In this document: positions 30,310 through 31,031 of the stretch, piece after piece
Layout of the letters: each line of letters begins with the position of its first letter
How positions within the stretch are numbered: position 1 is the stretch's first letter
Source: Bacteroidota bacterium
GTDB lineage: Bacteria > Bacteroidota > Bacteroidia > Chitinophagales > Chitinophagaceae
Reading direction: 5' to 3'
Assembly (NCBI GenBank): GCA_005883765.1
Contig: VBAQ01000045.1
Coordinates: forward strand, 1-38,693
Length of the DNA: 38,693 bases
Translations under genes and position numbers: made by a program
Notes under the pieces: generated by a model
Told to the model about the DNA's origin: nothing
Database searches by the model: none
What the model saw: only the letters and a program-made list of their open reading frames with translations

Positions 30310-30383
30310 GGGGAATTAGCTCAGCTGGCTAGAGCGCTTGCATGGCATGCAAGAGGTCGTCGGTTCGACTCCGATATTCTCCA
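30310..30383 (+). tRNA. tRNA-Ala (anticodon GGC)
   Basis: 74-nt cloverleaf. Acceptor GGGGAAT pairs with ATTCTCC (one G-U), D arm GCTC/GAGC, anticodon stem CTTGC/GCAAG with loop ATGGCAT giving GGC, T arm GTCGG/CCGAT, discriminator A. The CCA tail is not encoded (next bases are CAAG). Its 3' part from the D loop on is copied twice downstream around GIY-YIG genes. Confidence 0.95.
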
Positions 30384-30408
30384 CAAGACTTGCACAGGTT
30401 GGTTGTTT

Positions 30409-30660
30409 ATGTCCTTTTATGTTTATATTTTGTATTCAAAGACAATTGATGAATATTATGTTGGGCACAGTGGTCATTTAGAAAATCGTCTTTTTCGTCA
30501 TGTACACTCGGGCAGTAAAGCAACCAAAAAAGCAAGCGATTGGATATTAGTATACAAAGAAGAGTTTAACACAAAAGCCGAGGCCTGTCGGCGGGAAATG
30601 GAAATAAAAAAAAGAAAGAGCCGCAGGTATATTGAGTCGTTAGTAACAGCAAGCACCTAG
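30409..30660 (+). CDS. Small GIY-YIG nuclease, intact cassette copy 1
   Basis: 83 residues from ATG 30409. A minimal GIY-YIG domain: YVYILYS (GIY position, 4-10), YYVGHS (YIG position, 16-21), R27 in LENRLFRH and the acidic residue in CRREMEIKKRK, all expected for one-metal endonuclease catalysis. It starts 26 bp after the tRNA-Ala end, and its TAG stop overlaps the start of a copied tRNA 3' part. A degenerate second copy follows in tandem. The arrangement suggests a homing-type or mobile nuclease that uses the tRNA gene as its site; host-repair roles cannot be excluded. Confidence 0.85.
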   Translation: MSFYVYILYSKTIDEYYVGHSGHLENRLFRHVHSGSKATKKASDWILVYKEEFNTKAEACRREMEIKKRKSRRYIESLVTAST

Positions 30661-30709
30661 GCGTCCCGCAGCGTAGTGGGAAGGTCGTCGGCGACTCCAA
30701 TATTCTCCA
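30657..30709 (+). pseudogene. tRNA 3'-part copy 1 (degenerate)
   Basis: Matches the tRNA-Ala from the D-loop end (CTAG, GCG) to the discriminator base (AATATTCTCCA), but the anticodon arm is replaced by TCCCGC-AGCGTA-GTGGGA and the T arm has a 2-nt deletion plus a G to A change. No 5' acceptor half, so it cannot be a functional tRNA. Confidence 0.8.
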
Positions 30710-30734
30710 CCAGACTCGCACACATTGTTTGTGT

Positions 30735-30979
30735 ATGTCCTTTTATGTTATAATTTGCGTTCAGAGGTAATTGATGAATATTATGTTTGGCGCAGTGGCC
30801 ATTTAGAAAATCGTCTTTTTCGAGACGTACACTCGGACAGTAAAGTAACCAAAAAAGCAAGCGATTGAATACTAACATACGAAAGAGGGTCTAACACAAA
30901 AGCTGAGGCTTGCACAAGGGAAATAAAAAAAAGGAAAAACCGCGAGTATATTGAGTCGTTAATGACAGTACGTACCTAG
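30735..30979 (+). pseudogene. GIY-YIG nuclease, decayed cassette copy 2
   Basis: Clearly homologous to 30409-30660 at the DNA level over its whole length, including the leader just after the tRNA end. The frame is broken: a one-base loss after TTTTATGTT leads to an early TAA, a TGG codon (GATTGG) has become TGA (GATTGA), and part of the C-terminal Met-Glu-Ile region is lost. The stop TAG again overlaps a tRNA copy (CTAGAGCG). No selection for protein remains. Confidence 0.88.
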
Positions 30980-31031
30980 AGCGTCCCGCAGCGCGGCGGG
31001 AAGGTCGTCGGTTCGACTCCGATATTCTCCA
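30976..31031 (+). pseudogene. tRNA 3'-part copy 2
   Basis: Identical to the tRNA-Ala from AGGTCG in the variable region through the T arm and acceptor 3' strand to TCTCCA, and again CTAGAGCG from the D loop. The anticodon arm is replaced by TCCCGC-AGCGCG-GCGGGA, a perfect 6-bp stem with a 6-base loop (18 nt instead of 17). The 5' half is absent. It marks the downstream boundary of the cassette array. Confidence 0.85.

Follow-up and report, generated by a model that had tools for sequence, protein, structure and literature searches.

A tandem array of tRNA-Ala-derived cassettes with a GIY-YIG nuclease gene in a Bacteroidota bacterium, a putative minimal selfish element

Downstream of an intact tRNA-Ala(GGC) gene of a Bacteroidota bacterium (Chitinophagaceae; assembly GCA_005883765.1) we found two tandem units, each of which combines a small GIY-YIG nuclease gene, intact in the first unit and decayed in the second, with a truncated copy of the neighboring tRNA whose anticodon arm is replaced by a palindrome. 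With a confidence that is only slightly better than even, we interpret these units as two tandem copies of a minimal selfish cassette, which would move and amplify by recombination directed by tRNA homology, with the palindrome as the presumed site of its nuclease. The window, i.e. the whole stretch of DNA that was analyzed, comprises 38,693 nucleotides (contig VBAQ01000045.1, positions 1 to 38,693, forward strand).

The array beside tRNA-Ala

The host gene of the array, identified by ARAGORN and by Rfam (RF00005, 62.9 bits), is located at 30310..30384 on the plus strand, as are all features of the array. The first unit (326 bp, 30385..30710), which is delimited by direct repeats with a spacing of 325/326 bp, is composed of a leader, an intact GIY-YIG gene and a palindrome-bearing copy of the tRNA 3' part. 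Its gene (30409..30660) starts with the ATG at 30409, encodes 83 amino acids and ends with a TAG (30658-30660) within tRNA-derived sequence. This is followed by the palindrome TCCCGCAGCGTAGTGGGA (30664..30681), which stands in place of the anticodon arm at the same position as in the Ala copies of other species (nt 27->45), and by the tRNA-Ala 3' copy from variable loop to acceptor (30682..30710), which carries a short deletion and one substitution. The second unit (322 bp, 30711..31032), parts of which are 82-85% identical to the first, is decayed, and its nuclease gene (30735..30979) contains one internal in-frame TGA and a longest open stretch of 47 aa. The gene ends at the TAG of CTAGAGCG and is followed by the palindrome TCCCGCAGCGCGGCGGGA (30984..31001), again in place of the anticodon arm, and by a 31-nt exact copy (100% identity) of the tRNA-Ala 3' part (31002..31032). 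Together the two units measure 648 bp, which is exactly the spacing of this 31-nt repeat, AGGTCG...CTCCAC (30354-30384 and 31002-31032).

An initial annotation of the window had described a tandem tRNA-Ala/GIY-YIG array with units of these two lengths, the first nuclease being intact and the second decayed, all of which our analysis bears out, while the final repeat, given there as about 29 bp, is 31 nt long. Its statement that the stop codon TAG overlaps D-loop sequence holds insofar as the TAG lies in tRNA-derived CTAG(AG)CG in both units; the sequence named, CTAGAGCG, occurs only in unit 2, and unit 1 has CTAGGCG. Likewise, both units do end in a tRNA 3' copy, but this copy is not a plain one, since the 17-nt anticodon arm CTTGCATGGCATGCAAG of tRNA-Ala is exchanged in both for an 18-nt palindrome (TCCCG…CGGGA) that had been overlooked.

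The GIY-YIG ORF is the sole ORF of the unit and GIY-YIG its sole Pfam domain, and no HUH Y1 transposase accompanies the palindrome among the Pfam domains of the unit. A GT20 glycosyltransferase gene is located upstream of the array and DUF6728 and lpxB genes downstream, with a GMP-synthase gene also among these housekeeping neighbors, and no integrase was found among the ORFs of the unit or the neighboring genes examined. Integrated elements commonly leave partial tRNA copies in prokaryotic genomes (PMC9897764), and the 3' copies might accordingly be attachment remnants of integrase elements, or else tandem duplications that include a nuclease gene by chance. Such passive debris is already disfavored by these neighbors, by palindromes that covary and track the nuclease, and by the strand agreement and the recurrence of the same design at many isotypes that are described below, and we regard it as highly improbable. 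Elsewhere in the window (36260-36367, minus strand) an ordinary Bacteroidales small SRP RNA was detected (92.7 bits).

Occurrence in Bacteroidota and empty tRNA sites

Of the eight small GIY-YIG genes in G000, the present genome, seven are located next to tRNAs (Arg, Pro twice, Ala, Asn, Ser and His), which is far beyond chance since the ~40 tRNA neighborhoods make up, by our own calculation, only roughly 0.5% of the genome. The initial annotation had suggested that GIY-YIG genes near tRNAs be sought across Bacteroidota, and in a protein-only search of the class 26 of 30 loci were indeed located no more than 250 bp from a tRNA, all on its strand. When the family genomes and the protein-only searches of named genomes and of the class are taken together, 140 of 141 tRNA-adjacent GIY-YIG genes share the strand of the tRNA. 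The tRNA-riding cassettes occur at about 15 isotypes, and tandem arrays with a period of 320-380 bp are present at Asp (four units), Pro, Met, Arg, Ala, Lys and Leu. Most GIY-YIG genes are located downstream with a 3' half copy, a mirror form with the gene upstream and a 5' half copy exists as well (L002, Pro), and at three loci (L069, L070, L073) upstream tandem 5' half copies were found without a gene. A separate clade of such GIY-YIG genes in these genomes is not linked to tRNAs. The few matches in Ignavibacteria, Marinimicrobia and Armatimonadetes bins come from metagenome assemblies, which could be contaminated. No relative of the cassette nuclease was found in the phages and plasmids searched, and an origin from either was rejected; only three viral contigs carry the gene, two of them with a tRNA beside it, in one case on the opposite strand. 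A search of open-access full texts yielded, in agreement with the initial annotation, no description of these cassettes, and the family of tRNA-riding nuclease-palindrome cassettes is widespread and apparently undescribed.

This genome additionally contains palindrome-bearing half or full tRNA copies without a nuclease gene at Ile (L219), Leu-TAG (L235), Thr-TGT (L214), iMet (L220), Ser-GCT (L233, two copies) and Leu-GAG (L239), which are possibly non-autonomous or decayed cassettes. A well-supported nuclease clade (L006, L065, L083, L094) is found 59-190 bp downstream of tRNA-Ser, mostly without a clear tRNA copy, and perhaps represents a different kind of association.

An empty tRNA-Ala site, for which a comparison of strains had been recommended, was found in the one other species of the genus that was sampled (G039; the present genome is G000). 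There the same neighbors and an identical 75-nt tRNA-Ala are present without the two units, and the species differ at this site by the 648 bp plus a short divergent spacer. The reverse case was observed at tRNA-Leu(TAA) beside tRNA-Gly, where three GIY-YIG units are present in G039 and none in G000. These two sites, one filled in each species, indicate that cassettes have been gained or lost within one genus. Across the class, Ala(GGC) is filled, with a recognizable gene, in about 6 of 91 genomes, a patchy distribution. The outcomes that had been named in advance as contrary to the earlier proposal, a lack of empty alleles and a placement of the genes independent of tRNAs in relatives, did not occur, and the view of a minimal mobile-like cassette with repeated insertion at one tRNA is supported.

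In the filled species only the extra half copies are altered, while the intact tRNA-Ala equals that of the empty site, and the anticodon arms of tRNA-Ala in filled class genomes correspond to the consensus. The filled Ala allele thus does not appear to be a resistant version, and the presence of a recoded rescue tRNA was rejected for Ala. These observations bear on the strongest rival to our interpretation, classical homing, in which the nuclease would cut the intact tRNA of empty alleles at the arm that is later masked by the palindrome. Repair would then proceed from the cassette allele, with the full tRNA and the palindrome-bearing half serving as the two homology arms, and the palindrome would shield the copies from recutting. 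The existence of empty sites is in line with such a process, as is SegB of phages T4/T6, a free-standing GIY-YIG homing endonuclease whose cuts fall inside phage tRNA genes and which amplifies a tandem of tRNA and segB (PMC13096335). However, the intact tRNA next to the nuclease retains its natural arm and does not differ from the tRNA of the empty site, and we consider classical homing rather unlikely. Of the self-preserving homing device proposed in the initial annotation, the mobile-like cassette remains, whereas a nuclease that cuts the intact tRNA is not supported, given the identical tRNA-Ala of filled and empty species and the Slx1/UPF0213 lineage of the protein.

At tRNA-Leu(TAA), the genes of G039 (L100, filled) and G000 (L229) are identical over the first 60 nt and differ at ~7 positions in the last 27, and the 3' part of L100 equals the 3' part of its own cassette copies. 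Judged by this resemblance, L100 is possibly a chimeric tRNA with a 3' end from the cassette, and this one suggestive case makes it possible that the cassette restores the 3' end of the tRNA.

Palindromes, half copies and nuclease lineages

When downstream 3' copies were picked solely by their match to the T-arm/acceptor of the tRNA, a stem of at least 6 bp was present just before the T-arm match in 65 of 78 copies, compared to 3.8% of shuffles; two of the 65 are N-masked and have to be discounted, which leaves about 63 of 76 readable copies. At Ala(GGC) nearly all copies, which come from more than 20 species, have the palindrome in place of tRNA positions 28-44. Pairing is kept despite sequence change: in a set of 17 copies, 15 of them from Ala, pairing amounts to 98.3% and four pairs are changed on both sides, and the covariation score of 0.358 (0.118 when shuffled) was not reached in any of 500 shuffles.

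The sequences that flank the anticodon-arm palindrome differ between upstream and downstream copies. Identity to the local tRNA over the 12 nt on its 5' side is 97% for upstream and 83% for downstream copies, and on its 3' side it is 75% and 94%, respectively (p 3e-8 and 2e-5). Upstream copies therefore keep the 5' half of the tRNA and downstream copies the 3' half, an asymmetry that would fit recombination arms flanking a tRNA gene and that is also predicted by classical homing. It is less easily reconciled with an action at the RNA level, in which the GIY-YIG protein would cleave the cognate tRNA or a related RNA as a toxin and the transcribed palindrome-bearing pieces would restrain it as decoys, similar to a type III toxin-antitoxin system. 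Isotype-specific lineages, tandem repeats that adjoin the gene, tRNA-like copies whose arm is altered and a high turnover would suit such a system, and a prokaryotic fusion of Slx1 with TrmH points to a possible connection with RNA (PMC1564403). However, the copies are one-sided fragments, which lack the 3' side when located upstream and the 5' side when located downstream and would thus mimic a tRNA poorly, and at several tRNAs the copies are not accompanied by a nuclease gene. In addition, an RNase of this type is not known among GIY-YIG proteins, which counts further against a toxin with decoys, and we judge it improbable.

The nucleases cluster by tRNA isotype across genera (18 changes on the tree compared to 38.4 when shuffled), and a second test on the nuclease tree gave a similar result (32 compared to 77.7). 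The position of the palindrome likewise follows this tree (15 changes compared to 27.7) and is linked to nuclease clade even within one isotype. For the palindrome sequence class 2 changes were counted compared to 15.1 expected, with 0 of 500 shuffles as low, on a tree built from about 75 columns and with two classes that were defined after the data had been seen and to one of which row L083 was probably assigned wrongly. Since both classes are present in five genomes, and both were found at each of Arg, Met, Leu and Pro, neither genome nor isotype explains the class. These comparisons suggest that different nuclease lineages have different palindrome classes, of the TCCCG and CCGCC/CCTGCC types and apparently of a third, AGCGTC type. 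The copies of a further small nuclease clade (L051, L052, L059) contain this third form, with AGCGTC or AGCGCC. Palindromes of the third form, with the core AGCGTC/AGCGCC/AGCGTG, were observed in the T-arm region at L051, L052, L059, L066, L137 and L239.

On this sequence evidence, the palindrome is a better candidate for the nuclease's own site than the intact tRNA gene; the link between the two could also be plain co-inheritance instead of recognition, and the clustering by isotype could result from tRNA homology alone. A palindrome that sits exactly on a tRNA arm, in a clade-linked position, fits a masked cut site equally well, as classical homing would have it, but the sequence class, beyond the position, also tracks the nuclease, which speaks against homing.

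Palindromes of the form TCCCG(N2-12)CGGGA are common elsewhere in G000, with 165 sites genome-wide compared to 19 in the reversed control and TCCCGATAGCTATCGGGA being frequent, which, together with the lack of a relative in the phages and plasmids searched, has to be set against the interpretation as a selfish cassette. Counts of the TCCCGA form range from 0 to 85 in related genomes. In G008 a single TCCCGA(N2-6)TCGGGA site was found genome-wide, and its Arg cassette has a close form with a 7-nt loop. Genome-wide counts of TCCGCC palindromes showed no clear link to nuclease type. The possibility that the palindromes arose when dispersed repeats of the host itself were inserted was considered and is unlikely, because their class follows the nuclease and not the genome.

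The nuclease, a proposed mechanism and known systems

The 83-aa protein belongs to the GIY-YIG superfamily (PF01541, E 5e-13), with Y6, Y17, G19, R27, H31 and E63 invariant, and it has no invariant Asn, the C-terminal residue of the UvrC/homing lineage. Its AlphaFold model (pLDDT 88) forms a single domain. By sequence as well as by fold, UPF0213 (1zg2, E 4e-15) and Slx1 (E 3e-8) are the nearest solved structures, and they are the top Foldseek matches. The nuclease is thus placed in the Slx1/UPF0213 lineage and not in the I-TevI/SegB homing lineage, in line with the prokaryotic Slx1 family being standalone and distinct from the lineage that gave rise to homing endonucleases (PMC1564403). A single Slx1-lineage domain of about 80 aa that lacks a DNA-binding module or extension, and whose nearest kin is not I-TevI, is a further point against classical homing. 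Searches of PHROGs and PADLOC gave no match for the cassette nuclease, and membership in a PHROG family or a defense system was discarded.

The nuclease genes are under strong purifying selection (median dN/dS of 0.083 for 59 pairs of Ala-type genes). Such selection would also suit a domesticated host function, in which the cassette would guard or sustain the tRNA gene, for instance by offering phage or ICE integrases a decoy attachment site, or would adjust the copy number of tRNAs; Slx1 maintains repeated rDNA (PMC1564403), and tRNA genes are frequent integrase targets (PMC9897764). However, the patchy presence at Ala(GGC), the gain or loss within a genus and the decay of the second unit in the window disagree with a host function, which we regard as very improbable.

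In the mechanism that we propose for a selfish cassette, one unit consists of a gene for a single-domain Slx1-type GIY-YIG nuclease and a truncated copy of the host tRNA with one arm replaced by a lineage-specific palindrome. We infer that the nuclease would act within the tRNA copy at its own palindrome, folded into a hairpin or cruciform, and that the break would expose the adjoining tRNA half, which could then recombine with the intact same tRNA on a sister chromosome, on incoming DNA or in another genome. The unit would thereby be duplicated in place or inserted beside an empty tRNA, with one complete tRNA always left, and the intact tRNA would be spared because it is without the palindrome. 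It is close to an even call, though slightly short of one, that the cassettes represent a new class of minimal mobile element, in which a structure-specific nuclease of Slx1 type and its own palindrome in a half tRNA copy spread by tRNA homology alone, without a transposase, an integrase or a classical homing endonuclease. If so, a selfish element of ~320 bp with one 80-residue protein would have colonized most kinds of tRNA genes in Bacteroidota, and probably in some other phyla too, and would rank among the smallest autonomous elements known. A large set of orphan Slx1-like nucleases would thereby acquire a function, and the cassettes would illustrate how essential genes can be occupied without harm. 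The nuclease-palindrome pairs make recognition directly testable in vitro.

The cassette would work like a nuclease-driven selfish element, yet it lacks the lineage and the DNA-binding extension of classical homing endonucleases, the HUH Y1 transposase of REP/RAYT systems and the integrase of elements integrated in tRNA genes. It resembles SegB in that the GIY-YIG gene is found beside tRNAs of many isotypes and forms tandem tRNA-nuclease units, those of SegB being 718 bp long, but SegB is phage-borne and of another GIY-YIG lineage, whereas the cassettes reside on a bacterial chromosome and have palindrome-bearing tRNA halves, which the accessible part of the SegB report does not mention (PMC13096335). 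With Slx1/UPF0213 proteins (1zg2, 6seh), it shares fold, sequence lineage and catalytic residues; Slx1 acts on branched DNA and on tandem rDNA copy number, but the known members are not described as tRNA-riding or paired with a palindrome (PMC1564403). Similar to ICEs and prophages in tRNA genes (attL/attR), the cassettes duplicate the tRNA 3' part and keep a functional tRNA, but they are 320-bp units without an integrase, have an arm replaced by a palindrome and also include upstream 5' copies. RAYTs (REP-associated tyrosine transposases) are HUH (Y1) transposases, and REP/RAYT systems likewise combine a small palindrome with a dedicated nuclease-like protein and include non-autonomous copies without a gene, in contrast to the GIY-YIG enzyme and the tRNA-derived site found here. 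Integron gene cassettes (ORF plus attC hairpin) also form tandem one-gene units that end in a hairpin-forming site, but in the present cassettes a tyrosine integrase is lacking, all units carry the same gene and the site is a tRNA half. The cassettes are at present annotated as stray "GIY-YIG" genes and pseudo-tRNAs. Full-length palindrome-bearing copies at two loci (L048, L174) are named tRNA-Stop(tta) by ARAGORN, and such copies may therefore inflate the tRNA annotations of Bacteroidota.
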